A model generated the notes under the pieces. The model was given only the letters and a program-made list of their open reading frames with translations. It ran no database searches and was not told where the DNA came from. From positions 44,306,064 to 44,370,063 of the forward strand of contig CM045734.1 in the NCBI GenBank assembly GCA_024760905.1: a DNA stretch of 64,000 nucleotides, read 5' to 3'. Source of the stretch: Plotosus lineatus. Taxonomy: Eukaryota > Chordata > Actinopteri > Siluriformes > Plotosidae. Position numbers and translations under genes: made by a program. This document shows, piece after piece, positions 1-46,856 of the stretch (its first letter is position 1; each line of letters opens with the position of its first letter).

Positions 1-260
1 GGATGCCCTTCCTGTCACAACCCTTTTTAGTAAGGGACAGAAACACACTGACGACTTTGCAGCTACTCTTTACGAAAGTCAGTAATGGTTCTTTTACATG
101 AACCTCTCACCATAGACAGTGAGAGACATGGCCTGCCTTTGATAACCCAGTTAGCTGCACTGGGGGGGGGACAGTGACAACCTTGTGGAGAGTGGGACTC
201 GAACCCCCAACCTTTGGATCAGCGATCCAGCGCCCTATACCACTAGACCACCACTGCCCC
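1..260 (-). mobile_element. SINE-A, cut by the window edge
   Basis: The minus strand reads the tRNA-like head (GGGCAGTGGTGGTCTAGTGG, from base 260 leftwards), the B-box-like GGGTTCGAGTCCC, a C-run, the body and the start of the RTE-derived 3' part. The rest lies outside the window. It interrupts a pogo-type MITE whose right part follows directly. Confidence 0.85.
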
Positions 261-4354: not shown

Positions 4355-7300
4355 GAGGCACTAACCAGTGTCTCTCCCCCTCATGCCGGTCCCAAGCTCG
4401 GAGAAATGCAGAGGGTTGTGTCAGGAAGGGCATCTGACGTAAAACCAATGCCAATTATTTATGATGCAAATCAAAAGTATTACCTCCATACCGGATCGGT
4501 CGAGGCCCGGGTTAACAACGACCGCCATCAGTGCTGTCAATCAACAGGGTGCTGATGGAAATTGGACTACTGTTGGTCGAAGACGTCGAAGAAGGAGAGG
4601 TGGGAGGCGTGTCCGTAGGCAGAGAGAGAAGAGGAAAGGCATGAGTCTAGGACTGAGAGTGGGGACTTTGAATGTTGGAACAATGCACAGAAAAGGTAGA
4701 GAGCTGGTTGACATGATGCAGAGGAGGAAGGTGGACATACTGTGTGTTCAGGAGACCAGGTGGAAAGGTAGCAAAGCTAAAAGCTTAGGAGCAGGGCTTA
4801 AGCTATTTTATCACGGTGTGGATGGGAAGAGAAATGGAGTCGGAGTCATCTTGAAGGAGGAGTTTGTCAGGAATGTTCTAAAAGTGAAAAGAGTGTCAGA
4901 CAGAGTGATGAGTCTCAAGTTAGAAATTGAAGGTGTAATGCTCAATGTTGTTAGTGCTTATGCCCCACAGGCAGGATGTGAGCTAGAAGAGAAGGAGAGA
5001 TTCTGGAGTGACTTAGATGAAGTGATGCAGAGTACCACCAGAGGTGAAAGAGTGGTCATTGGTGCAGACTTCAATGGACATGTTGGTGCAGGCAACAGAG
5101 GGGACGAGGAAGTGATGGGCAGGTTTGGTATCCAGGACAGGAACGCAGAAGGACAGATGTTGATAGATTTTGCAAAAAGGATGGAAATGGCTGTGGTGAA
5201 TACTTTCTTCCAGAAGAAACAGGAGCATAGGGTGACTTATAAAAGCGGAGGTAGGAGCACACAGGTAGACTACAGCTTGTATAGGCGATGTAATTTGAAG
5301 GAAGTCAGTGACTGCAAAGTCATAGTGGGTGAGAGTGTTGCCACACAGCATAGGATGGTGGTGTGCAGGATGACTCTGATGGTGAGAAAGGTGAAAAAGG
5401 CAAAGGCAGAGCAGAAGACAAAGTGGTGGAAGCTGAAAAAGGAAGAGTGTCGTGTTGTCTTCAAGGAGGAGTTGAAACAGGCTTTGGGTGGCCAGGAAGT
5501 GCTTCCAAATGACTGGACAACCACAGCAAATGTGATCAGGGACACAGGTAGGAGAGTACTTGGTGTGTCCTCTGGAAGGAAAGTAGATAAGGAGACTTGG
5601 TGGTGGAATGAGGAAGTGCAGGAGTGTGTACAAAGGAAGAGGTTAGCCAAGAGGAAGTGGGACATTGAGAGGACCGAAGACAGTAAACAGGAGTACAGGG
5701 AGACACAGCGTAAGGCGAAAGTAGCAGTGGCTAAGGCCAAACAGAGGGCGTATGATGACTTGTATGATAGGTTGGATAGTAAAGAGGGAGAAAATGATCT
5801 ATACAGGTTGGCACAGCAGAGAAATAGAGATGGGAAGGACGTGAAGCAAGTTAGATTGATAAAGGACAGAGAGGGAACTGTATTGACTAATGACAGAAGT
5901 GTGCTGGGAAGATGGAAAGAGTACTTTGAAGAGCTGATGAATGAGGAAAATGAGAGAGAAAAAAGAGTAGAAGAGGTAACCATTGAGGAGCAGGATGTAG
6001 CAAAGATCAGTAAGGGTGAAGTGAGAAGGGCATTGAAGAGAATGAAGAATGGAAAGGCAGTTGGTCCTGATGATATACCTGTGGAGGTATGGAAGTGTCT
6101 AGGAGAGGTAGCAGTAGATTTTCTGACAAGAACATTCAACAAGGTACTAGAGAGTCAGCAGATGCCGGAGGAGTGGAGGAGAAGTGTGCTGGTGCCCATC
6201 TTTAAGAACAAGGGAGACGTGCAGAGTTGCAGCAACTACAGAGGGATAAAGTTGATGAGCCATACGATGAAGTTATGGGAAAGAATAGTGGAAGCTAGAC
6301 TAAGGGCAGAGGTCAGCATTTGTGAACAACAGTTTGGTTTCATGCCAAGAAAGAGCACCACAGATGCAATGTTTGCCTTGAGGATGTTAATAGAGAAGTA
6401 CAGAGAAGGTCAGAGGGAGCTATTGTGCCTTTGTGGATCTGGAAAAAGCATATGACAGGGTGCCAAGAGAAGAACTGTGGTATTGCATGAGGAAGTCTGG
6501 AGTGGCAGAGAAGTATGTTAGAGTGGTGCAGGACATGTATGAGAGATGTAAGACAGTGGTGAGGTGTGCTGTTGGTGTGACCGACGAATTCAAGGTGGAG
6601 GTGGGACTGCATCAAGGGTCAGCTCTGAGCCCCTTCTTGTTTGCTATGGTGATGGACAGGCTGACAGACGAGGTGAGACAAGAATCTCCATGGACTATGA
6701 TGTTTGCAGATGACATCGTGATCTGTAGTGAGAGCAGAGAACAAGTGCAGGAAAATCTAGAGAGGTGGAGGTATGCCCTGGAAAGGAGGGGAATGAAGGT
6801 TAGCCTCAGAAAATCAGAATACATGTGTGTGAATGAGAAGGACCCAGGAGGAACGGTGGTGTTACAGGGAGCAGAGATAATGAAGGTGGAGGATTTTAAG
6901 TACTTAGGCTCAACAATCCAGAGCAATGGAGAGTGTGGAAAAGAGGTGAAGAAGCGTGTGCAGGCAGGCTGGAATGGTTGAAGAAAAGTATCCGGTGTGA
7001 TGTGCGATAGGAGAGTGTCAGCAAGAATGAAGGGAAAAGTGTACAAGATGGTGGTGAGGCCAGCGATGTTGTATGGCTTAGAAACAGTGGCGCTGAGGAA
7101 AAGGCAGGAGGCAGAGCTGGAGGTAGCGGAGATGAAAATGTTGAGGTTCTCCCTGGGAGTAACGAGGATGGATAGGATCAGAAATGAGTATATCAGAGGG
7201 ACAGCCCACGTAAGATGTTTTGGAGACAAAGTCAGAGAGGCTAGCTTGAGATGGTTTGGACATGTACAGAGGAGGGATAGTGAGTATATTGGCAGTAGGA

Positions 7301-7487
7301 TGCTGAGGTTGGAACTACCAGGCAGAAGGCCTCGAGGAAGACCGAAGAAGAGATTTATGGATGTGGTGAAGGAAGACATGAAGGTCGTTGGAGTCAGAAA
7401 AGAAGATGCGGAGGACAGGGTGAGGTGGAGGCGGATGATTTGCTGTGGCGACCCCTGAAGGGAGCAGCCGAAAGTAAAAGAAGAACT
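4355..7487 (+). mobile_element. RTE-clade LINE, copy R1, nearly full length
   Basis: A non-LTR retrotransposon with an apurinic-like endonuclease followed by reverse transcriptase in one frame. The short 5' leader has the motifs CCAGTGTCTCTCCC and AGGAAGGGCATCTGACGT shared with R3 and R5. The 3' noncoding part is only about 30 bp (CCCTGAAGGGAGCAGCCGAA then AAGAAGAA), typical of RTE elements, which lack a long poly-A. I see no clear target-site duplication. Confidence 0.9.
4461..7458 (+). pseudogene. RTE endonuclease/reverse transcriptase ORF of R1 (broken)
   Basis: The first frame (4461-6455, 664 codons) contains the endonuclease: GTLNVGTM, LCVQETRWKG, NVVSAYAPQ, VIGADFNGHVG and QHRMVVCRM. 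The reverse transcriptase begins with [11 protein letters not shown] and FGFMPRKSTTDA. A 2-base deletion near 6420, compared with R3, shifts the frame. The second piece (6433-6981) carries [22 protein letters not shown] and the catalytic FADD (6703-6714). A TGA at 6979-6981 replaces the TGG tryptophan of R3. The third piece (6997-7458) has the C-terminal domain GRRPRGRPKKRFMDVV and ends ICCGDP. Predicted database copies of this protein are often named craniofacial development protein 2-like, a misnomer from the endonuclease domain. One frameshift and one stop make it inactive. Confidence 0.9.
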
Positions 7488-11973: not shown

Positions 11974-14534
11974 ATCATGGTGTGGATGGGAAGAGAAATG
12001 GAGTAGGAGTCATCTTGAAGGAGGGGTTGGTCAGGAATGTTCTAAAAGTGAAAAGAGTGTCAGAATGATGAGTCTCAAGTTAGAAATTGAAGGTGTGATG
12101 TTCACTGTTGTTAGTGCTTATGCCCCACAGGCAGGATGTGAGCTAGAACGGAAGGAGAGATTCTGGAGTGACTTAGACGAAGTGATGCAGAGTACCCCCA
12201 GAGGTGAAAGAGTGGTCATTAGTGCAGACTTCAATGGACATGTTGGTGCAGGCAACAGAGGGGACGAAGAAGTGATGGGTAGGTTTGGTATCCAGGACAG
12301 GAACACAGAAGGACAGATGTTGATCGATTTTGCAAAAAGGCTGGAAATGGCTGTGGTGAATACTTTCTTCAAGAAGAGACAGGAGCATAAGGTGACTGAT
12401 CAAAGCAGAGGTAGGAGCACACAGGTAGACTACATCTTGTGCAGGCGATGCAGTGTGAAGGAAGTCAGTGACTGCAAAGTAGTAGTGGGTGAGAGTGTTG
12501 CCAAACAGCATAGGATGGTGGTGTACAGGATGACGCTGATGGTGAGGAAGGCGAAGAAGGCAAAGGCAGAGCAGAAGACAAAGTGGTGGGAGCTGAAAAA
12601 GGAAGAGGGTCGTGTTGTCTTCAAGGAGGAGTTGAAATAGGCTTTGGGTGGTCAGGATGTGCTTCCAGATGACTGGACAACCACAGCAAATGTGATCAGG
12701 GAGACAGGTAGGAGAGTACTTGGTATGTCCTCTGGAAGGAAAGGAGATAAGGAGACTTGGTGGTGGAATGAGGAAGTGCAGGAGTGTGTACAAAGGAAGA
12801 GGTTAGCTAAGAAGAAGTGGGACATTGAGAGGACCAAAGAGAGTAAACAAGAGTACAGGGAGACACAGCGTAAGATGAAAGTAGCGGTGGCAAAGGCCAA
12901 ACAGAGGGCGTATGATGACTTGTATGATAGGTTGGACAGTAAAGAGGGAGAAAATGATCTATACAGGTTGGCAGAGATGGGAAGGATGTGCAGCAAGTTA
13001 GATTGATAAAGAACAGAGAGGGAAATGTATTGACTGATGACAGAAGTGTGCTGGGAAGATGGACAGAGTACTTTGAAGAGCTGATGAATGAGGAAAATGA
13101 GAGAGACAAAAGAGTAGAAGAGGTGACCGTCAAGGACCAGGAAGTAGCAAAGATTAGTAAAAGTGAAGTGAGGAGGGCACTGAAGAGGATGAAGAATGGA
13201 AAGGCAGTTGGACCCGATCATATACCTGTGGAGGTATGGAAGTGTCTCGGAGAGGTAGCAGTAGATTTTCTGACAAGAATATTCAACAAGGACTTAGAGA
13301 GTGAGCAGATGCCAGAGGAGTGGAGGAGAAGTGTGCTGGTGCCCATTTTTAAGAACAAGGGAGATGTGCAGAGTTGTGGCAACTACAGAGGGATAAAGTT
13401 GATGAGCCATACGATGAAGTTATGGGAAAGAATAGTGGAAGTTAGACTAAGGGCAGAGGTCAGCATTTGTGAAGAACAGTTTGGTTTTCATGCTAAGGAA
13501 GAGCACCACAGATGCAGTGTTTGCTTTGAGGATGTTAATAGAGAAGTACAGAGGTCAGAGGGAGCTGCATTGTGCCTTTGTGGATCTGGAAAAAGCATAT
13601 GACAGGGTGCCAAGAGAAGAACTATGGTATTGCAGGAGGAAGTCTGGAGTGGCACAGAAGTATGTTAGAGTGGTGCAGGACATGTATGAGAGATGTAAGA
13701 CAGTGATGAGGTGTGACCGATGAATTCAAGGTGGAGATGGGACTGCTATGTTTGTAGATGACATTGTGATCTGTAGTGAGAGCAGAGAACAAGTGGAGGA
13801 AAATCTAGAGAGGTGGAGGTATGCCCTGGAAAGGAGAAGAATGAAGGTTAGCCTCAGTAAATCAGAATACATGTGTGTGAATGAGAAGGACCCAGGAGGT
13901 ACGGTGATGTTACAGGGAGCGGGAGATAAGGAAGGTGGAGATTTTAAGTACTTAGGCTCAACAATCCAGACCAATGGAGAGTGTGGAAAAGAGGTGAAGA
14001 AGCATGTGCAGGCAGGTTGGAATAGTTGGAGAAAAGTGTCCGGTGTGATGTGCAATAGGAGAGTATCAGCAAGAATGAAAGGAAAAGTGTACAAGACGGT
14101 GATGAGGCCAGCGATGTTGTATGGTTTCGAAACAGTGGCGCTGAGGAAAAGACAGGAGGCAGAGCTGGAGGTAGCAGAGATGAAAATGTTGAGGTTCTCT
14201 CTGGGAGTAACGAGGATGGATAGGATCAGAAATGAGTACATCAGAGGGACAGCCCATGTAAGATGTTTTGGAGACAAAGTCAGAGAGGCTAGATTGAGAT
14301 AGCTTGGACATGTACAGCGGAGGGATAGTGAATATATTGGCAGTAGGATGCTGAGGTTGGAACTACCAGGCAGAAGGCCTAGAGGAAGACCAAAGAAGAG
14401 ATTTATGGATGTGGGGAAGGAAGACATGAAGGTCGTTGGCATAACAGAAGAAGATGCAGAGGACAGGGTGAGATGGAGGCGGATGATTTGCTGTGGTGAC
14501 CCCTGAAGGGAACAGGTGAAAGGAAAAGAAGAAG
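11974..14534 (+). pseudogene. RTE-clade LINE, copy R2, 5'-truncated and broken
   Basis: It starts within the endonuclease (HGVDGKRNGVGV region) and ends in the usual CCCCTGAAGGGAACAG plus AAGAAGAAG. Candidate flanking repeats AGGTCTA are short. Frame breaks occur at a TAG near 12638, near 12980, near 13490 and in the reverse transcriptase. About 110 bp between the EFKVE and FADD regions are deleted (around 13739-13747), removing the [10 protein letters not shown] motif. The catalytic FADD is FVDD (13751-13762), an A-to-V change. A further TAG lies near 14300. This is an inactive copy. Confidence 0.9.
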
Positions 14535-16295: not shown

Positions 16296-16650
16296 GGGCA
16301 GTGGTGGTCTACTGGTATAGGGCGCTGGATCGCTGATCCAAAGGTTGGGGGTTCAAGTCCCACTCTCCACAAGGTTGTCACTGTCCCCCCCACAGTGCGG
16401 CTAACTGGGTTATCAAAGGCGGGCCATGTCTCTCACTGTCTATGGTGAGAGGCATGTAAAAGAACCATTGCTGACTTTCGTAAAGAGTAGCTGCAAAGTC
16501 GTCAGTGTGTTTCTGTCCCTTGATAAAAAGGGTTGTGACAGGAAGGGCATCTGACATAAAAACCTAGGTCAAATCAAATGTGCGAAACAGATGATTCGCT
16601 GTGGCGACTCCCGAGTAAAAGGGAAAAAAGCTGAAAGGAAGACAGACAGA
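16296..16650 (+). mobile_element. SINE-A, full length (reference copy)
   Basis: It is flanked by CTTCACCTCATTC (16283-16295) and CTTCGCCTCATTC (16651-16663). In order: tRNA-like head (16296-16369, A-box-like TGGTCTAGTGG, B-box-like GGGTTCAAGTCCC); a C-run; an unassigned body with GGTTATCAAAGGCGGGCCAT and AAAAGAACCATTGCTGAC; about 60 bp matching the RTE 5' leader (GACAGGAAGGGCATC, GACATAAAAACC); then the RTE 3' end (GATTCGCTGTGGCGAC, then AAGCTGAAAGG). It ends in an (AGAC)n tail. Transcription is presumably by RNA polymerase III from the internal boxes. Confidence 0.9.
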
Positions 16651-28704: not shown

Positions 28705-31700
28705 ATGCAGCCATGAGGCGGGGGGGGCACGAACCAGTGTCTCTCCCCCTTATGCCGGTCCCAAGCCCGGATAAATGCAGAGGGTTGCGACAGGAAGGGC
28801 ATCCGGCGTAAAACTTCTGCCACATTTAAAAAATGCAAATGATCAAAACAAAATTCATACCGGATCGGTCGAGGCCCGGGTTAACAACGACCGCCATCAG
28901 TGCTGTCAACCAACAGGGTGCTGATGGAAATTGGACTACTGTTGGTCGAAGACGTCGAAGAAGGAGAGGCGGGAGGCGTGTCCGTAGGCAGAGAGAGAAG
29001 AGGAAATGTGTGAGCCTAGGACTGAGAGTAGGGACTTTGAATGTTGGAACTATGCAAGGAAAAGATAGGGAGCTGGCTGACATGATGCAGAGGAGGAAGG
29101 TGGACATACTGTGTGTTCAGGAGACAAGGTGGAAAGGTAGAAAGGCTAGAAGCTTAGGAGCAGGGTTTAAACTGTTTTATCATGGTGTGGATGGGAAGAG
29201 AAATGGAGTAGGAGTCATCTTGAAGGAGGGGTTTGTCAGGAATGTTCTAGACGTGAAAAGAGTGTCAGACAGAGTAATGAGTCTCAAGTTAGAAATTGAC
29301 GGCGTGATGGTCAATGTTGTTAGTGCTTATGCCCCACAGGCAGGATGTAAGCTAGAAGAGAAGGAGAGATTCTGGAGTGATTTAGATGAAGTGATGCAGA
29401 ATACCCCCAGAGGTGAAAGAGTGGTCATTGGAGCAGACTTCAATGGACATGTTGGTGCAGGCAACAGAGGGGACGAGGAAGTGATGGGCAGGTTTGGTAT
29501 CCAGGACAGGAACACAGAAGGACAGATGTTGATCGATTTTGCAAAAGGATGGAAATGGCTGTGGTGAATACTTTCTTCAAGAAGAAACAGAAGCATAGGG
29601 TGACTTATGAAAGCGGAGGTAAGAGCACACAGGTAGACTACATCTTGTGCAGGCGATGTAATTTGAAGGAAGTCAGTGACTGCAAAGTAGTAGTTGGTGA
29701 GAGTGTTGCCAAACAGCATAGGATGGTGGTGTGCAGGATGACACTGATGGTGAGAAAAGTGAAAAGGCAAAGGCAGAGCAGAAGACAAAGTGGTGGAAGC
29801 TGAAAAGGAAGAGTGTCGTGTTGTCTTCAAGGAGGAGTTGAAACAGGCTTTGGGTAGTCAGGAAGTGCTTCCAGAGGACTGGACAACCACAGCCAATGTG
29901 ATCAGGGAGACCGGTAGGAGAGTACTTGGTGTGTCCTCTGGAAGGAAAGTAGATAAGGAAACTTGGTGGTGGAATGAGGAAGTGCAGGAGTGTGTACAAA
30001 AGAAGAGGTTAGCCAAGAAGAAGTGGGACATTGACAGGACCGAAGAGAGTAAACAGGAGTACAGGGAGATACAGCGTAAGGCGAAGGTAGCAGTGTCAAA
30101 GGCCAAACAGAGGGCGTATGATGACTTGTATGATAGGTTGAACAGTAAGGAGGGAGAAAATGATCTATACAGGTTAGCACAGCAGAGAAATAGAGATGGG
30201 AAAGACATGCAGCAAGTGAGAGTGATAAAGGACAGAGAGGGAAATGTATTGACTGATGACAGAAGTGTGCTGGGAAGATGGAAAGAGTACTTTGAAGAGC
30301 TGATGAATGAAGAAAATGAGAGAGAAAAAAGAGTAGAAGGGGTGACCGTTGAGGAGCAGGAAGTAGCAAAGATTAGTAAGGGAGAAGTGAGGAGGGCATT
30401 GAAGAGGATGAAGAGTGGAAAGGCAGTTGGCCCTGATGACATACCAGTTGAGGTATGGAAGTGTCTAGGGGAGGTAGCAGTAGATTTTCTGACAAGAATA
30501 TTCAACAAGGTCTTAGAAAGTGAGCAGATGCCAGAGGAATGGAGGAGAAGTGTGCTTGTGCCCATTTTTAAGAACAAGGAGATGTACAGAGTTGTGGCAA
30601 CTACAGAGGGATAAAGTTGATGAGCCATACAATGAAGCTATGGGAAAGAATAGTGGAAGCAAGACTAAGGGCAGAGGTCAGCATTTGTGAACAACAGTTT
30701 GGTTTCATGCCCAGAAAGAGCACCACAGATGCAGTGTTTGCTTTGAGGATGTTAATAGAGAAGTACAGAGAAGGTCAGAGGGAGCTGCATTGTGCCTTTG
30801 TGGATCTGGAGAAAGCCTATGACAGGGTGCCGAGAGAAGAACTGTGGTATTGTATGAGGAAGTCTGGAGTGACAGAGAAGTATGTTAGAGTGGTGCAGGA
30901 CATGTATGAGAGATGTAAAACAGTGGTGAGGTGTGCTGTTGGTGTGACAGAAGAGTTCAAGGTGGAGGTGGGACTGCATCAAGGGTCAGCTCTCAGCCCC
31001 TTCTTGTTTGCTATGGTGATGGACAGGCTAACAGGCGAGGTTAGACAAGAATCTCCATGGACTATGATGTTTGCAGATGACATCGTGATCTGTAGTGAGA
31101 GCAGAGACCAAGTGGAGGAAAATCTAGAGAGGTGGAGGTATGCCCTGGAAAGGAGGGGATTGAAGGTTAGTCCTAGTAAGACAGAATACATGTGTGTGAG
31201 CGACAAGGACCCAAGAGGAACTTTGAGGTTACAGGGGGCAGAGATAAAGAAGGTGGAGGATTTTAAGTACTTAGGCTCAACAATCCAGAGCAATGGAGAG
31301 TGGGGAAAAGAGGTGAAGAAGCGCGTGCAGGCAGGTTGGAATGGATGGAGAAAAGTGTCAGGTGTGATGTGTGATAGGAGAGTATCAGCAAGAATGAAGG
31401 GAAAAGTGTACAAGACGGTGGTGAGGCCAGCAATGTTGTATGGTTTAGAGACAGTGGCCCTGGGGAAAAGACAGGAGTCAGAGTTGGAGGTAGCAGAGAT
31501 GAAAATGTTGAGGTTCTCTTTGGGAGTAACGAGGATGGATAGGATCAGAAATGAGTACATCAGAGGGACAGCACATGTTAGATGTTTTGGAGACAAAGTC
31601 AGAGAGGCTAGGTTGAGATGGTTTGGACATGTACAGAGGAGGGATAGTGAGTATATTGGTCGTAGGATGCTGAGGTTGGAACTACCAGGCAAAAGGCCCA

Positions 31701-31853
31701 GAGGAAGACCAAAGAGAAGATTTATGGATGCGGTGAAGGCGGACATGAAGGTCGTTGGAGTAAGAGTAGAAGATGCAGAGGACAGGGAGAGATGGAGGCA
31801 GATCATTTGCTGTGGCGACCCCTGAAGGGAACAGCCGAAAGGACAAGAAGAAG
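28705..31853 (+). mobile_element. RTE-clade LINE, copy R3, full length with target-site duplication
   Basis: A perfect 18-bp duplication ATAGGGTACATTTTGGTA (28687-28704 and 31854-31871) gives exact ends and a length of 3149 bp. The 5' leader is about 130 bp (ATGCAGCC, a G-run, CCAGTGTCTCTCCC, GACAGGAAGGGCATCCGGCG). One long coding region follows. The tail after the stop is 28 bp (AGGGAACAGCCGAAAGG, then AAGAAGAAG). This is the youngest RTE copy here and the best reference for the family. Confidence 0.95.
28833..31825 (+). pseudogene. RTE endonuclease/reverse transcriptase ORF of R3, four 1-base gaps
   Basis: Four frame pieces (28833-29567, 29549-29803, 29790-30614, 30617-31825) cover what would be roughly 1,000 residues. 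Endonuclease motifs: LCVQETRWKG, SAYAPQ, VIGADFNGHVG and STQVDYILCRR. Reverse transcriptase motifs: [64 protein letters not shown] and FADD at 31070-31081. The C-terminal part has KYLGSTIQSNGE, RPAMLYGLETVAL, RLRWFGHVQRRDSEY and RPRGRPKRRFMD, ending ICCGDP. Compared with R1, each gap is one base missing from a homopolymer: A-runs at 29543, 29762 and 29802, and a G-run at 30578. No in-frame stops are seen otherwise. Whether the gaps are real or assembly errors decides if this is a pseudogene. Confidence 0.9.
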
Positions 31854-32590: not shown

Positions 32591-32977
32591 ATGGTTTCAT
32601 GCTTGTTCAGTAAAATAGTGTCGAGTGATGCACCACCAGTCCAGCAAGTTCAAAAGTCCCTTTCATCAAACAGTATGGCATCACACACAATTCTACAAAT
32701 GTGCAATCAGATCATAGATTCTGTATCTCATAGAGAATACAATGTTTTGGTAAACCAGAAGTACTTGACTGGATAAAATGACTAGCTACATAATACGCTT
32801 TTAACCAGACACAGAATATAAAATTTGCGGGGCTTTGGAGTAGTGGACAACCGCATCACATCAAGGAGGTCCAGGGTTTAATACCAGCGTTCAAGGTGTA
32901 TATATATCCAATGTTGGCTGCAATGGCCACCAGCCTTGGACAAACATAAGCATTAGAATATATATATATATATATAA
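32591..32977. other. AT-rich, short tRNA-like fragment
   Basis: At 32829-32885 GGCTTTGGAGTAGTGGACAA and AGGTCCAGGGTTTAATACC resemble a decayed SINE head. A short (TA)n follows at 32960-32975. Confidence 0.4.
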
Positions 32978-33160
32978 ACAAAAATAAAAGGACAGGACAA
33001 AGACTTTCTATTGAAACTTCAGGTGATTATAGATTATAGATTATTTCTTCTATAATCACCTGAAGAGAGAGGATGGTTTCACCACCCCTCGAAACAGATC
33101 TGTAGTGATGAATAGATTTTTAATAGAAAGTCTTTGTCCTGTCCTTTTATTTTTGTTATT
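32978..33160 (+). mobile_element. foldback fragment, probably a Penelope-like element terminus
   Basis: The left arm (32978-33035) is an inverted, internally deleted copy of the right arm (33036-33160). The outer blocks match exactly as AAAGACTTTCTATT versus AATAGAAAGTCTTT with the adjoining GTCCTGTCCTTTTATTTTTG. The inner blocks match as CTTCAGGTGATTATAGA versus TCTATAATCACCTGAAG. The right arm holds a hammerhead motif. Inverted partial terminal copies and short-stem hammerheads are known from Penelope-like retroelements, hence the inference. No reverse transcriptase is adjacent. Confidence 0.5.
33049..33116 (+). ncRNA. hammerhead ribozyme, type I, short stem III
   Basis: Core CTGAAGA (33060-33066, fitting CUGANGA) and GAA (33091-33093) are intact. 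Stem II is 33067-33090: GAG/CTC, GG/CC and TGGT/ACCA around a TTC loop, with one bulged A and one A-C mismatch. Stem III is ACAG/CTGT (33094-33097 with 33100-33103) around a 2-base loop. The A-U pair at 15.1-16.1 is present, and the cleavage triplet is GTA, so cutting is expected after 33104. Stem I pairs GTGAT (33105-33109) with ATCAC (33055-33059), then, after a GA/A internal loop, ATAGA (33112-33116) with TCTAT (33049-33053). Every required core base is present. Very short stem III is known for retroelement hammerheads that act as dimers. Confidence 0.8.
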
Positions 33161-33211
33161 TGCTCAACCAAAAAGTATTGAGCACTCTCCTACAGAAGGA
33201 TCTACTCAGAA

Positions 33212-33217
<6 letters not shown>

Positions 33218-33292
<75 letters not shown>
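33218..33292 (+). repeat. (CT)n-(TA)n microsatellite
   Basis: CT units to about 33247, then TA units up to the tail of R4. Confidence 0.9.
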
Positions 33293-33294
<2 letters not shown>

Positions 33295-34622
33295 CTTCTT
33301 CTTCTTTTCCTTTCGGCTTTTCCCTTCAGGGGTTGCCACAGCGAATCATCTGCCTCCATCTCACCCTATCCTTTGCATCATCTTCTCTTACATCAACGAC
33401 CTTTATGTCCTCCTTTACATCTATGAATCGTCTCTCTTGTCTTCCTCTCGGCCGTCTGCCTGGTAGTTCCAACCTCAGCATCCTACGACCAATATACTCA
33501 CTATCCCTCCTCTGTACATGTCCAAACCATCTCAATCTAGCCTCTGACTTTGTCACCAAAACGTCTTACATGTGCTGTCCCTCTGATGTGCTCATTCCTA
33601 ATCCTACCTCAACATTTTCACCTCTGCTACCTCCAGTTCTGCCTCCTGTCTTTTCCCCAGGGCCACTGTTTCTAAACCATACAACATTGCTGGCCTCAAC
33701 ACCGTCTTGTACATTTTTCCTTTCATTCTTGCCGATAACCTCCTATCACACATCACACCGGACACTTTTCTCCAACAATTCCAACCTGCCTGCACACGCT
33801 CCTTCACCTCTTTTAGTCCATGAGGAATCTTGTTTAACCTCGTCTGTCAGCCTGTCCATCACCATAGCAACAAGAGGGGGCTCAAAGCTGACCCTTGATG
33901 CAGTCCCACCTCCACCTTGAACTCTTCTGTAACACCGACAGCACACCTCACCACTGTCTTACATCTCTCATACATGTCCTGCACCACTCTAACATACTTC
34001 TCTGCCACTCCAGACTTCCTCATGCAATACCACAGTTCCTCTCTCGGCACCCTGTCATATGCTTTCTCCAGATCCACAAAGGCACAATGCAGCTCTGTCT
34101 GACCTCTGTACTTTTCTATTAACAACCTCAAGGCAAACACTGCATCTGTGGTGCCCTTTCTTGGTATGAAACCAAACTGTTGTTCACAAATGCTGACCTC
34201 TGCCCTTAGTCTAGCTTCCACTATTCTTTCCCATAACTTCATCGTATGGCTCATCAACTTTATCCCTCTGTAGCTGCCACAACTCTGCACGTCTCCCTTG
34301 TTCTTAAAAATGGGCACCAGCACACGGCATCCTCTCACTCTCAAAGACCTTATTGAATGTTCTTGTCAGAAAATCTACTGCTACCTCTCCTAGACACTTC
34401 CATACCTCCACCGGTATTTCATCAGGACCAACTGCCCTTCCATTCTTCATCCTCTTCAATGCCCTCCTCACTTCACCCTTACTAATCTTTGCTACTTCCT
34501 GGTCCTCAACAGTCACCTCTTCTACTCTTTTTTCTCTCTCATTTTCCTCATTCATCGGCTCTTCAAAGTACTCTTTCCATCTTCCCAGCACACTTCTGTC
34601 ATCAGTCAATACATTTCCCCTT
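33293..34622 (-). pseudogene. RTE-clade LINE, copy R4, 5'-truncated
   Basis: The minus strand starts at the GNVLTDDRSVLGRW region, just before the reverse transcriptase, and runs to the standard tail (AAGCCGAAAGGAAAAGAAG at 33313-33293). The motifs [30 protein letters not shown] and [18 protein letters not shown] are readable (34344-33859). A deletion near 33820 removes several hundred bases including FADD. Its 5' end abuts the 3' tail of R5 directly. Confidence 0.88.
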
Positions 34623-37600
34623 CTTATTCTTTTACTTTCAGCTGCTCCCTTCAGGGGTCGCCACAGCAAATCATCCGCCTCCACCTCACCCTGTCCTCCG
34701 CATCTTCTTTTCTGACTCCAATGACCTTCATGTCTTCCTTCACCACATCCATAAATCTCTTCTTTGGTCTTCCTCGAGGCCTTCTGCCTGGTAGTTCCAA
34801 CCTCAGCATCCTACTGCCAATATACTCACTATCCCTCCTCTGTACATGTCCAAACCATCTCAATCTAGCCTCTCTTTGTCTCCAAAACATCTTACGTAGG
34901 CTGTCCCTCTGATATACTCATTTTTGATCCTATCCATCCTCGTTACTCCCAGAGAGAACCTCAACATTTTCATCTCCGCTACCTCCAGCTCTGCCTCCTG
35001 CCTTTTCCTTAGCGCCACTGTTTCTAAACCATACAACATCGCTGGCATCACCACCGTCTTGTACACTTTTCCCTTCATTCTTGCTGACACTCTCCTATCG
35101 CACATCACACCGGACACTTTTCTCCAACCATTCCAGCCTGCCTGCACACACTTCTTCACCTCTTTTACACACTCTCCATTGCTCTGGATTGTTGAGCCTA
35201 AGTACTTAAAATCCTCCACTTCCTTATCTCTGCTCCCTGTAACATCACCGTTCCTCCTGGGTCCTTCTCATTCACACACATGTATTCTGATTTACTGAGG
35301 CTAACCTTCATTCCTCTCCTTTCCAGGGCATACCTCCACCTCTCTAGATTTTCCTGCACTTGTTCTCTGCTCTCACTACAGATCACAATGTCATCTGCAA
35401 ACATCATAGTCCATGGAGATTCTTGTCTCACCGCGTCTGTCAGCCTGTCCATCACCATAGCAAACGGGCTCAGAGCTGACCCTTGATGCAGTCCCACCTC
35501 CACCTTGAATTCGTCGGTCACACCTCACCACTGTCTTACATCTCTCATACATGTCCTGCACCACTCTAACATACTTCTCTGCCAATCCAGACTTCCTCAT
35601 GCAATACCACAGTTCTTCTCTTGGCACCCTGTCATATGCTTTTTCCAGATCCACAAAGGCACAATGTAGCTCCCTCTGACCTACTCTGTCTGTCTGTCTG
35701 TCTTCCTTTCGGCTTTTTCCCTTTTACTCGGGAGTCGCCACAGCGAATCATCTTGATTCGCACATTTTGATTTGGCAGAGGTTTTTTACGTCAGATGCCC
35801 TTCCTGTCACAATCCTTTTAGCAAGGGACAGAAACATGCTGACGGCTTACTCTGTATTTCTCTATTAACATCCTCAAAGCAAACATTGCATCTGTGGTGT
35901 GCTTTCTTGGCATGAAACCAAACTGTTGTTCACAAATGCTGACCTTTGCCCTTAGTCTAGCTTCCACTATTCTTTCTCATAACTTCATCGTATGGCTCAT
36001 CAACTTTATCCCTCTGTAGTTGCTGCAACTCTGCACATCTCCCTTGTTCTTAAAAATGGGCACCAGCACACTTCTCCTCCACTCCTCCGGCATCTGCTGA
36101 CTCTCTAGTACCTTGTTGAATGTTCTTGTCAGAAAATCTACTGCTACCTCTCCTCGACACTTCCATACCTCCACAGGTGTATCATCAGGACCAACTGCCT
36201 TTCCATTCTTCATCCTCTTCAATGCCCTTCTCACTTCACCCTTACTGATCTTTGCTACATCCTGCTTCTCAATGGTCACCTCTTCTATTCTTTTTTCTCT
36301 CTCATTTTCCTCATTCATCAGCTCTTCAAAGTACTCTTTCCATCTTCCCAGCACACTTCTGTCATCAGTCAATAATTTCCCTCTCTGTCCTTTATCAATC
36401 TAACTTGCTGCACGTCCTTCCCATCTCTATTTCTCTGCTGTGCCAACCTGTATAGATCATTTTCTCCCTCTTTATTATCCAACCTATCATGCAAGTCATC
36501 ATACGCCCTCTGTTTGGCCTTAGCCACTGCTACTTTCGCCTTACGCTGTGTCTCCCTGTACTCCTGTTTACTCTCTTCGGTCCTCTCAATGTCCCACTTC
36601 TTCTTAGCTAATCTCTTCCTTTGTACACACTCCTGCACTTCCTCATTCCACCACCAAGTCTCCTTATCTACTTTCCTTCCAGAGGACACACCAAGTACTC
36701 TCCTACCTGTGTCCCTGATCACATTTGCTGTGGTTGTCCAGTCATTTGGAAGCACTTCCTGACCACCCAAAGCCTGTTTCAACTCCTCCTTGAAGACAAC
36801 ACGACCCTCTTCCTTTTTCAGCTTCCACCACTTTGTCTTCTGCTCTGCTTTTGCCTTTTTCACCTTTCTCACCATCAGAGTCATCCTGCACACCACCATC
36901 CTATGCTGTGTGGCAACACTCTCACCCACTATGACTTTGCAGTCACTGACTTCCTTCAAATTACATCGCCTACACAAGATGTAGTCTACCTGTGTGCTCC
37001 TACCTCCGCTTTTATAAGTCACCCTATTCTCCTGTTTCTTCTGGAAGAAAGTATTCACCACAGCCATTTCCATCCTTTTTGCAAAACCTACCAACATCTG
37101 TCCTTCTGCGTTCCTGTCCTGGATACCAAACCTGCCCATCACTTCCTCGTCCCCTCTGTTGCCTGCACCAACATGTCCATTGAAGTCTGCACCAATGACC
37201 ACTCTTTCACCTCTGGCGGTACTCTGCATCACTTCATCTAAGTCACTCCAGAATCTCTCCTTCTCTTCTCGCTCACATCCTGCCTGTGGGCCATAAGCAC
37301 TAACAACATTGAGCATTACACCTTCAATTTCTAACTTGAGACTCATCACTCTGTCTGACACTCTTTTCACTTTTAGAACATTCCTGACAAACTCCTCCTT
37401 CAAGATGACTCCTACTCCATTTCTCTTCCCATCCACACCGTGATAAAATAGCTTAAACCCTGCTCCTAAGCTTTTAGCTTTGCTACCTTTCCACCTGGTC
37501 TCCTGAACACACAGTATGTGCACCTTCCTCCTCTGCATCATGTCAGCCAGCTCTCTACCTTTTCCTGCCATAGTTCCAACATTCAAAGTCCCTACTTTCA

Positions 37601-37905
37601 GTCCTAGACTCATGCCTTTCCTCTTCTCTTTCTGCCTGCGGACACGCCTCCCGCCTCTCCTTCTTCGATCAACAGTAGTCCAATTTCCACCAGCACCCTG
37701 TTGATTAACAGCACTGATGGCGGTCGTTGTTAACCCGGGCCTCGACCAATCCGGTATGTCATTCTTTCTTGTGATTCGCATATTTTATTTGGCATTTGCT
37801 TTATGCCGGATGCCGTTCCTGACGCAACCCTCTGCATTTATCCGGGCTTGGGACCGGCGTGAGGGAGAGACAGTGGTTTGGGCCCCCCCTTAACGGCTGC
37901 ATTAA
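34623..37905 (-). pseudogene. RTE-clade LINE, copy R5, full length, broken, with SINE-A inside
   Basis: The minus strand begins near 37905 with the family leader (G-run, CCGGTCCCAAGCCCGG, CCAAATAAAATATGCGAATC). The first long frame, 37781-36369 (470 codons), carries the whole endonuclease (LCVQETRWKG, SAYGPQ, VIGADFNGHVG). The frame then shifts near 36370; the next piece, 36372-35977, includes [11 protein letters not shown]. After the SINE-A insertion the reverse transcriptase continues ([10 protein letters not shown] 35654-35620, FADD near 35400). C-terminal pieces lie at 35219-34651. It ends ICCGDP and CCCTGAAGGGAGCAGC near 34640. At least four frame breaks make it inactive. Confidence 0.9.
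35690..35847 (-). mobile_element. SINE-A, 5'-truncated, inserted in R5
   Basis: It is flanked by TACTCTGT (35682-35689 and 35848-35855). It contains only the RTE-derived 3' portion of SINE-A plus its (AGAC)n tail. A short element built from RTE ends has thus inserted into an RTE copy. Confidence 0.85.
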
Positions 37906-39265: not shown

Positions 39266-39592
39266 AGGGCAGTGGTGGTCTAGTGGTAAAGGGCGCTGGA
39301 TTGCTGATCCTAAGGTTGGGGGTTCAAGTCCCACTCTCCACAAGGGCCCCCCGTGCAGCTAACTGGGTTATCAAAGGCCGGCCATGTCTCTCACTGTCTA
39401 TGGTGAGAGGTTCATGTAAAAGAACCATTGCTAACTTTAGTAAAGAGTAGCTGCAAAGCCGTCAGCATGTTTCCGCCCTGCAATGGCCTGGCGAGTTGTC
39501 CAGGATATATGCTGCCCGAAGTCGGCTGGGATGGGCGTCAGCCTCCCCGTGACCCTAATTAGGATTAGTAAACGGTTACAGAAAATGAACTG
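39266..39592 (+). mobile_element. SINE-B, 12-bp duplication
   Basis: Perfect AACACTTAGCAA repeats (39254-39265 and 39593-39604). Full order of head, body, CCGCCCTGCAATGGCCTGGC and CCTAATTAGGATTAG, with the GTTACAGAAAATGAAC tail. Confidence 0.92.
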
Positions 39593-43579: not shown

Positions 43580-44640
43580 TTTGCGCGCGTGTATCAAGAA
43601 TAAAAGACGTGTTTCCGGTCCGTGAGGCGCGTTTGGCTTTCCATACGCGCATGTACGCACGGAGCGCACGAACGCTCCAGAGGAATGACGCGCAGCACGT
43701 TGCAAAGCGCCAGGAAGCCGCACCGCGTGTCGCGCGCGTGTGCGGAGCCGCGCGTCAGTACGCGCTGATTGGTCGGACAGCACATCCGTCAGCGTATCCG
43801 GAAAACGCAAAACGGAAACACGCGCGCAAACGCACACTGCACGCGGGACGCATAAAATAACAAACAAACAAACAAACACAAAACACCCCCAGAACACCAA
43901 CAAGGGCCAAATGGGGCCGTTCGAGGGTCTGCTGGTTGAAGAAGTGCGCCGTTATAAACACTTATACGACCCGTCCTCCAAACATTACAAACACAGTGAC
44001 GTAGTGCTGAAATCCTGGAAGGAAATTGGTAGAACATTGGGAGAAGATCCTGAGGTGTGCATGAAGAAATGGAAAGCTATCCGAGATAAATTCGTGCGCT
44101 TGAAGAAGAAACTCAAGACCCGAACCGGGGACTCGGGCCCCGACGAGGACAAAGAACCGGAATATTACGTGAGGCTGTCGTGGCTCAAAGGATTCATTAA
44201 ACACCGAGACACGAAGAACGAGTCCGGGCTTAAAGATGACGCGGGGGACTGGAGGAGGAGGAAGAGGAGGAGGAGGAGCGGCGAGCCGCACGTGTCGGGC
44301 ACCGACGACGACGACGAGGACGACTCCGCGTGCACGGAAGTGTCGTCAGCGAGCCAACCGATCAACAAGAGGAAGCGGCTGTCCAAGGGGCGGGACATAG
44401 CGGACAAGGTCTCAACTTTACGGAAGGAAATGGCGAACTGTACGGCGCTGGTGTCCCAGCTGAGCTCCATGACCGAGTCCCGGCGGAGCAGCGACGAGTT
44501 CTGCACGTTCGCGCAGGCTGTGGCGGACTCTCTCCGGAAACTCCCCCCTGAACGAGTCGAGGCGACCAAAGTGAAACTGTTCACGGTGCTCGGAGAAGCG
44601 CACAGTTGTCTGACGTCAGAAAAAAAGGAGTGACATGACT
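43580..44640 (+). promoter_or_regulatory. CpG-rich region over the MADF gene
   Basis: A dense run of CpG (for example GCGCGTTTGGC, CGCGTGTCGCGCGCG) begins just after a T-run at 43563-43582 and covers the upstream region and the whole reading frame. This contrasts with the CpG-poor repeats around it. There is no TATA box near 43740-43860, which suits a CpG-island promoter. The start site is not determinable. Confidence 0.6.
43911..44633 (+). CDS. MADF-domain (Adf-1-like) nuclear protein, single exon
   Basis: A 240-residue protein. Residues about 6-97 fit the MADF (Myb/SANT-like) DNA-binding fold: LLVEEVRRYKHLYDPSSKHY, KSWKEIGRTLG, CMKKWKAIRDKFVRLKKKL and a YYVRLSWLKGFI end. A basic stretch RRRKRRRRS (115-123) and KRKR (153-156) look like nuclear localisation signals around an acidic run (131-138). 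Residues about 195-230 (DEFCTFAQAVADSLRKLPPE, then AKVKLF-like) resemble the BESS interaction motif that often accompanies MADF. The ATG at 43911 was chosen for its strong context (CCAAATGG) and because the domain begins at once. An in-frame upstream ATG at 43740 would add 57 low-complexity residues. The frame is open, with no poly-A tract or flanking duplication suggesting retroposition. Likely a sequence-specific transcription regulator; the target is unknown. Fish carry many such genes, some related to Harbinger transposon DNA-binding proteins. Confidence 0.8.
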   Translation: MGPFEGLLVEEVRRYKHLYDPSSKHYKHSDVVLKSWKEIGRTLGEDPEVCMKKWKAIRDKFVRLKKKLKTRTGDSGPDEDKEPEYYVRLSWLKGFIKHRDTKNESGLKDDAGDWRRRKRRRRSGEPHVSGTDDDDEDDSACTEVSSASQPINKRKRLSKGRDIADKVSTLRKEMANCTALVSQLSSMTESRRSSDEFCTFAQAVADSLRKLPPERVEATKVKLFTVLGEAHSCLTSEKKE

Positions 44641-46505: not shown

Positions 46506-46856
46506 TGGGGCAGTGGTGGTCTAGTGGTATAAGGCACCGGATCGCTGATCCAGAGGTTGGGGGTTCGAGTCCCACTCTCCACAAGGTTGTCACTGTCCCT
46601 CCAGTGCAGCTAACTGGGTTATCAAAGGCCGGCCATGTCTCTCACTGTCTATGGTGTGAGGCATGTAAAAGAACCATTGCTGACTTTCGTAAAAAGAGTA
46701 AGCTGCAAAACCGTCAGCGTGTTTCCGCCCTGCGATGGCCTGGCAAGCTGTCCAGGGTGTACTCTGCCCTCGCCCTAAGTTGGCTGGGATGGGCACCAGC
46801 CTCCCCGTGACCCTAATTAGGATGAAGCGGTTACAGAAAATGAACTGAATGACGAA
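46506..46856 (+). mobile_element. SINE-B, full length
   Basis: CAGTTTCTTC duplicated (46493-46502 within the left flank and 46857-46866). Complete head, body, CCGCCCTGCGATGGCCTGGC and CCTAATTAGGATGAAGCGGT tail. Confidence 0.9.

Follow-up and report, generated by a model that had tools for sequence, protein, structure and literature searches.

A hammerhead ribozyme motif in the leader of a probable Penelope-like element of Plotosus lineatus and a peak of genomic arm ends at its predicted cut

Type I hammerheads with a weak stem III are already known from the pLTRs of Penelope-like elements (PLEs), where the available text describes them as thought to act as dimers (PMC6155905, PMC7761336). A review of 2020 uses the words 'still a mystery' of the in vivo cutting and the retention of these minimal PLE hammerheads (PMC7761336). 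For dimers of a mosquito hammerhead, a palindromic stem III with all 10 bp paired has been proposed (PMC3088659). For the anole PLE PAc (Poseidon, Anolis carolinensis), the text at hand describes cutting and extension of both target strands, with synthesis starting at internal sites that delimit the tail; its ribozyme needs protein, mutation of the ribozyme leaves insertion in vitro normal, and the cut site yielded no read ends (PMC11167929).

The element of Plotosus lineatus described here shares the type I fold, the weak stem III, the location in pLTRs and the supposed dimeric action with the PLE pLTR hammerheads, and in the available text of those reports nothing basic in architecture differs; a new family and the evidence from genomic ends are added (PMC6155905, PMC7761336). 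It resembles PAc, as far as the accessible description goes, in the hammerhead at the start of pLTR and ORF, in the AT-rich target with both strands apparently cut and extended, and in a tail that would lie between two internal start sites of reverse transcription. In contrast, the ORF of PAc starts at stem II, whereas an ORF start was not found in the present element, and PAc gave no reads at the cut, whereas the genomic arm ends of the present element peak there (PMC11167929). With the Penelope families of Adineta vaga it has in common inverted, 5'-truncated pLTRs placed head to head, an optional 3' tail on one pLTR and palindromic junctions; those families have few copies, most with ORF remains, against thousands of leader-only copies here, and a hammerhead is unmentioned in the part of that text searched (PMC3846280). 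The amphibian retrozymes, in the text available, likewise have a type I hammerhead with palindromic loop III that is efficient as a dimer, but they form tandem repeats of 330-350 bp and not head-to-head copies of a PLE leader (PMC7229834). No report of genomic insertion ends at the cut was found in the PLE hammerhead literature searched, most subscription journals lying outside that search. The kind of element is known, and the genomic footprint of the cut appears to be new.

The window, that is, the whole stretch of 64,000 nucleotides analysed, lies on contig C7 of the P. lineatus assembly. Around the hammerhead motif it contains an inverted repeat (32977-33157) that the original prediction had overlooked. 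The features of the insertion are as follows.

32958-32976, no strand: (TA)n run, left end of the insertion and likely target (sequence; compare the flanks of the family loci)
32977-33016, minus strand: inverted arm, outer part, tail-less and covering leader unit about 75-114 (98% complementarity with 33118-33157 over 40 nt)
33017-33033, minus strand: inverted arm, inner part, leader unit 6-22 (sequence and fold)
33034-33043, no strand: filler at the head-to-head junction (arm comparison)
33044-33157, plus strand: leader unit, 3' part of the pLTR, with unit position 1 at 33044 (family comparison)
33055-33109, plus strand: hammerhead, comprising inner stem I, CTGAAGA, stem II, GAA and the stem III palindrome
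33104-33105, plus strand: predicted cut between A33104 (unit 61) and G33105 (unit 62) (NUH rule; peak of genomic arm ends)
33158-33215, plus strand: tail, beside one arm only (tail motif and genome matches of its core pattern)
33216-33290, no strand: (CT)n and (TA)n run, right end of the insertion (tandem repeat finder)

The copy at 32977-33215 thus consists of an inverted leader lacking the middle of the unit, a plus-strand unit that holds the hammerhead, and a one-sided tail. Within the hammerhead, the core CTGAAGA (33060-33066, plus strand), a stem II of nine pairs with loop TTC (33067-33090), its bulge A33070 and mismatch A33073/C33085, GAA (33091-33093), the palindrome ACAGATCTGT of stem III (33094-33103) and the GTA triplet (33102-33104) were all found where they had been predicted. 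The pairs next to the core are standard throughout, and the invariant core and the three helices, open at stem I, of a type I hammerhead are present. The predicted cut, 3' of H17, is placed between 33104 and 33105 by the NUH rule. Inner stem I is formed by 33055-33059 with 33105-33109 and outer stem I by 33049-33053 with 33112-33116, so the predicted 5 plus 5 pairs do exist in the window copy, but the outer five are private to it: at that position the other family copies have GATAAATGGAG, with few one-base variants (by eye). The predicted stem III of 4 bp with a 2-base loop needs correction for the monomer, where no more than 3 bp form around a GATC loop, at a probability of 0.013; in the monomer fold the core CUG pairs with the CAG of stem III instead (probability 0.68). 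The fold of the 68-nt motif is slightly better than those of shuffles (z -2.2, 6/200).

With a descriptor of stem I>=5, stem II>=3 and stem III>=3, the motif was the single match on both strands of the window. Order-2 Markov windows gave 4 matches in 1,000 and 123 in 15,000; among the 123, stem II was equally stable in 7, stem III equally short in 27 and both in 2, while the summed stem energy was reached by 26. A motif of this quality is thus expected in about 1 of 7,500 windows, or about three times by chance in the 1.33 Gb genome, so that the evidence from the family, and not the motif alone, is decisive. The Rfam model of the type I hammerhead (RF00163) gave 10.7 bits on 76 nt against a cut-off of 34 (E 6.5) and was absent, up to E 10, from the matches obtained with 401 nt around the motif; at the gathering cut-off no Rfam match was obtained over the motif or in three relatives. 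The check proposed with the original prediction therefore returned a background score, one half of the combination, together with absent cleavage of monomer or dimer RNA, that was to count against it. Matches over the motif to MIR408, SNORD2 and mir-29 were rejected, as each scored under its own cut-off. With the family evidence described below, the observation of a hammerhead is confirmed.

In the window copy itself the ribozyme is predicted to be masked. The inner part of the inverted arm (33017-33033) is a perfect complement of the 5' strand of stem I plus the core CUGAAG, and because these 17 nt pair with that strand and the core, stem I is lost (probability 0.0 in the predicted fold with the inverted arm present). 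Without the inverted arm its probability is 0.013 for a transcript of 33034-33157 and 0.29 for one starting at 33049. The fold of 32965-33165 has -96.8 kcal/mol (z -17). The copy is a decayed insertion, and its ribozyme is predicted to be hidden by the inverted arm. One frame is open through hammerhead and tail in 33033-33215 and in another copy (L076:875-1120), the family majority sequence having no ATG there; this may be a decayed ORF start. The tail as an ORF start was rejected, its similarity to the N termini of homologues being reached by 177 of 500 shuffles.

Several other features were noted in the window. Large LINE fragments with RT frames occupy 4443-7458, 11975-14302, 28830-31825 and 33301-37784, RVT_1 being confirmed by Pfam among them for 30572-31825 only; a LINE fragment starting near 33291 adjoins the right-end (TA)n of the hammerhead element. 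Four near-identical matches to a tRNA model (30-34 bits), at 184-257 (minus strand), 16298-16371, 39269-39342 and 46510-46583, are probably the heads of tRNA-derived SINEs. An open frame at 43689-44633 contains a MADF DNA-binding domain (PF10545) and is likely a host gene or a transposon-derived gene.

The family was collected from the genome to which the window belongs. Of 935 candidates, 40 were scored, which favours good matches, and 30 loci (L002-L031) stem from these. All 30 carry the tail motif and follow one plan, in which a leader unit is joined by an inverted one, complete or truncated, and the tail stands next to one of the two arms. TA or TA/CT runs stand at both sides of 28. The leader unit starts at TTCTTC, the hammerhead occupies unit 12-66 and the tail follows the unit, while the junctions vary from copy to copy. 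In this set, biased as it is to good matches, the arms show 71 differences in 5,605 positions compared with the majority sequence (about 1.3%), of which 5 fall among the 534 core positions and 66 among the other 5,071. The core pattern of the tail matched the genome 9,476 times at <=2 mismatches, and its reversed control gave 0 matches. From the first 100 zero-mismatch places listed, all on contig C1, 70 further loci (L032-L101) were read. Of the 119 full arms in the 100 loci, 102 keep an intact hammerhead core; about 10 of the 70 loci (by eye) belong to a subfamily with GCC for GTC. No relatives were found in viral contigs, and the sole match in a set of genome contigs, a stretch of Nereida ignava, was dismissed by eye as a chance match.

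The original prediction assigned the ribozyme to a Penelope-like or other retroelement, and the PLE assignment is supported: the leader occurs as inverted and direct pLTRs on either side of an open frame with RT and GIY-YIG-like parts, and the one-sided tail and the AT-rich target point the same way. In the most informative copy (L102) the order is tail, inverted pLTR, 5'-truncated open frame, direct pLTR without tail and (TA)n; both pLTRs carry the same hammerhead and are 98.9% identical over 261 nt. In two other copies (L076 and L100) an RT frame lies antisense and faces the leader head to head. The direct and inverted pLTRs of PLEs, with a tail on one, are thus seen in L102 and in the short copies, and the AT-rich insertion of PLEs in the 28 loci mentioned above. 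A PLE-type reverse transcriptase is indicated by the frames of L076, L100 and L102, all of which contain YRDD, and by RVT_1 in homologues. The frame of L102 has 2,050 homologues among 8,000 scored; among the 120 listed, RVT_1 was found in P0165 and P0180 and GIY-YIG (PF01541) in P0121. The GIY-YIG match of another homologue, P0117 (17.3 bits), lay under the cut-off. The Pfam search of the element's own RT frames, including that of L102, found neither RVT_1 nor GIY-YIG, so that the putative endonuclease is assigned by homology and by reading the GIY-YIG-like end of the frame by eye. For one RT frame of the L076/L100 pair, 1,240 homologous proteins were counted, with identities of up to 79%, and the RT matches in the genome number 141, from 140 scored of 629 candidates; a PDB search with the RT piece gave no match.

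Two observations concern PLEs more widely. The PLE protein (L076:1-678, L102:1102-3255) is 78% identical to a protein of the sea anemone Nematostella, versus 68% for that of Entelurus, the only named fish protein among the homologues listed; judged from these sequences, horizontal transfer of the PLE is possible. PF01541 matches the genome 25 times, all elsewhere than the RT matches of the hammerhead family. Six of these matches lie at G000:C3:74878184-74909708 with spacings of 6.1-6.4 kb, like a tandem array, and four lie <42 kb from a contig start (C6:27939, C14:41308, C18:18449 and 24747); the array and the contig-start matches possibly represent another, subtelomeric PLE family.

The arms of the short copies allow the route of insertion to be considered. 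Among the 70 loci picked by tail, the tail-side arm begins at unit 1-9 in 38 (25 of them at position 2), at 19-81 in 17 and at 102-130 in 15, the last being a class of short insertions in some of which a second arm was not found. An opposite arm, sought close upstream only and with a few long junctions among the loci, was of full length in 33 loci and truncated in 12; in the other 25 none was found. The sharp 5' end at TTCTTC suggests an RNA start there; pLTR sequence upstream of it is present in 7 of the 100 loci. Since the tail adjoins a full arm in some loci and a truncated arm in others, the folding back of a single cDNA was rejected as a general route, and two priming events would explain the pairs. 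Each of the two nicked target strands would start reverse transcription at an internal site of the RNA, one at the tail's end and the other at TTTTTGTT, and the two cDNAs would reach the 5' end of the template or stop early and then be joined end to end. Microhomology is seen at some junctions, such as GAAA at unit 48 in 6 of 30. The two-priming model agrees with the cutting and extension of both strands in the available account of the anole PLE (PMC11167929). The short insertions noted above hold hardly more than the tail (L062, L068, L069, L079, L096, L099 and others), and three successive tail copies, 60 bp apart with (TA)n between, occur in L061 (G000:C1:4072521-4072669).

If the RNA is cut between A61 and G62, arms should start at 62, and this prediction was tested on junctions with both arms truncated. 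A pattern centred on the cut region found 246 such junctions in the genome, against 43 in an upstream and 68 in a downstream window of equal gap; the anchors were 14+14 nt in the control windows and 17+17 nt in the cut window, so that the controls were if anything favoured; but the GCC-for-GTC subfamily is lost from the downstream control only. Listed were 50 of the 246 junctions of the cut window, all 43 upstream, 50 of the 68 downstream and 100 of the 168 found in the genome with one full and one truncated arm; counting identical strings once left 44 distinct junctions in the cut window and 87 in the full-plus-truncated class. Among the 88 arms of the 44 listed, 21 start at 62, 16 at 61, 8 at 60, 9 at 63, 8 at 64 and 7 at 52-59, although some ends at 61 may be ends at 62 with a chance matching base. 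Unit 61-62 thus holds 37 of the 81 listed ends within 52-70, where a flat distribution predicts 8.5 (p 9e-16; p 3e-8 with the numbers halved, since arms come in pairs), and both arms fall within 60-63 in at least 17 of the 44. In the listed full-plus-truncated junctions no peak was found, 6 of 57 arms within 52-70 lying at 61-62 with 6.0 expected; a rise at 63-65 (17 of 57) is what stem I stops, or trimming, would give. The two classes, as listed, differ at 61-62 (Fisher p 1e-5), which indicates that ends at the cut come in pairs. The downstream window has a rise of its own at 79-80 (20 of 100 arms listed).

These ends suggest the footprint of a cleavage in vivo that hits both templates of one insertion. 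The original claim that the ribozyme processes transcripts gains indirect support from the genomic arm ends at the cut, but it does not extend to most insertions: 38 of the 70 tail-side arms reach the 5' end of the leader, so that those templates were uncut, and most insertions sampled used uncut RNA, as judged from their arms. Ends at 61-63 occur in only three loci of the tail-picked sample, in both arms of L051 and L094 and in a lone arm at the target in L070, so that cut templates would make up a few per cent of insertions. This minority would derive from RNA already cut by the hammerhead, both cDNAs being copied from cut RNA. Taken together, we give a probability of about 0.7 to the reading that the motif is a hammerhead in the pLTR or leader of a PLE, present in thousands of short, mostly ORF-less insertions of which a minority came from cut RNA.

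The same ends could have arisen on a PLE leader with a hammerhead fold through stops of the reverse transcriptase, trimming or microhomology and not through cut RNA, an explanation that we consider unlikely but not negligible. Ends at 63-66 do occur, and the GAAA junctions at unit 48 clearly reflect microhomology; yet an enzyme halted by stem I should end near 67 and not at 61-62, the fillers at the 61-62 junctions vary, and the same stop would be expected in the full-plus-truncated junctions, where the peak is missing. Palindromes are unstable, and the two ends of the 61-62 junctions are often nearly equal, as they would be if these junctions were later symmetric deletions at the centres of long palindromes. 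Deletions near the centre should then dominate, however, whereas the upstream window has 43 junctions against the 246 and merely 7 of the 88 listed arms fall at 52-59, and we hold this origin to be quite improbable.

Two further explanations concern the nature of the element, and both are given next to no weight. The small size, the type I hammerhead and the weak palindromic stem III recall the amphibian retrozymes in the available description (PMC7229834), and a metazoan retrozyme would spread through circular RNA; but the arms stand head to head, full arms begin at unit 1-9 and not at the cut, the leader flanks a PLE frame, and the head-to-tail repeats of 170-400 nt, with one ribozyme each, that mark such elements were not seen in the loci read. 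The 40-nt terminal inverted repeats, with a motif expected by chance at the rate given above, could suggest a MITE or fold-back DNA transposon in which the hammerhead is accidental. The matching ends and fixed structure of such elements were not found, target duplications being unreadable in (TA)n: the ends are unequal with a tail at one side, the arms are truncated at many positions, and the leader is also found on both sides of an RT frame.

For the preferred reading, a PLE leader inserted in part from cut RNA, paired ends at the cut imply either that one cut RNA was copied from both target strands or that both RNAs were cut together, the latter being what a dimeric hammerhead predicts. Dimer formation through the palindromic stem III, as originally suggested, is upheld by the isolated motif: the two-strand minimum-energy fold is an exact double hammerhead both for the window copy (-46.0 versus -35.4 for two monomers) and for the family majority (-39.4 versus -28.8). 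It is not upheld by the whole leader with tail (-82.4 versus -71.4), whose two-strand fold is by eye not a double hammerhead; stem I is hidden in the predicted fold of the whole leader (P 0.003). It is a tentative proposal, which we think more doubtful than probable, that the genome keeps a fossil record in which the two RNAs of an insertion complex pair via stem III and are cut together, while uncut complexes leave full arms.

Because each head-to-head junction records two template ends, leader insertions in their thousands allow cleavage to be tested without an experiment. If the peak at 61-62 holds genome-wide and follows the ribozyme across species, the question of cutting in vivo would be answerable from assemblies alone, and cuts in pairs would mark the action of dimeric hammerheads in genomic data.
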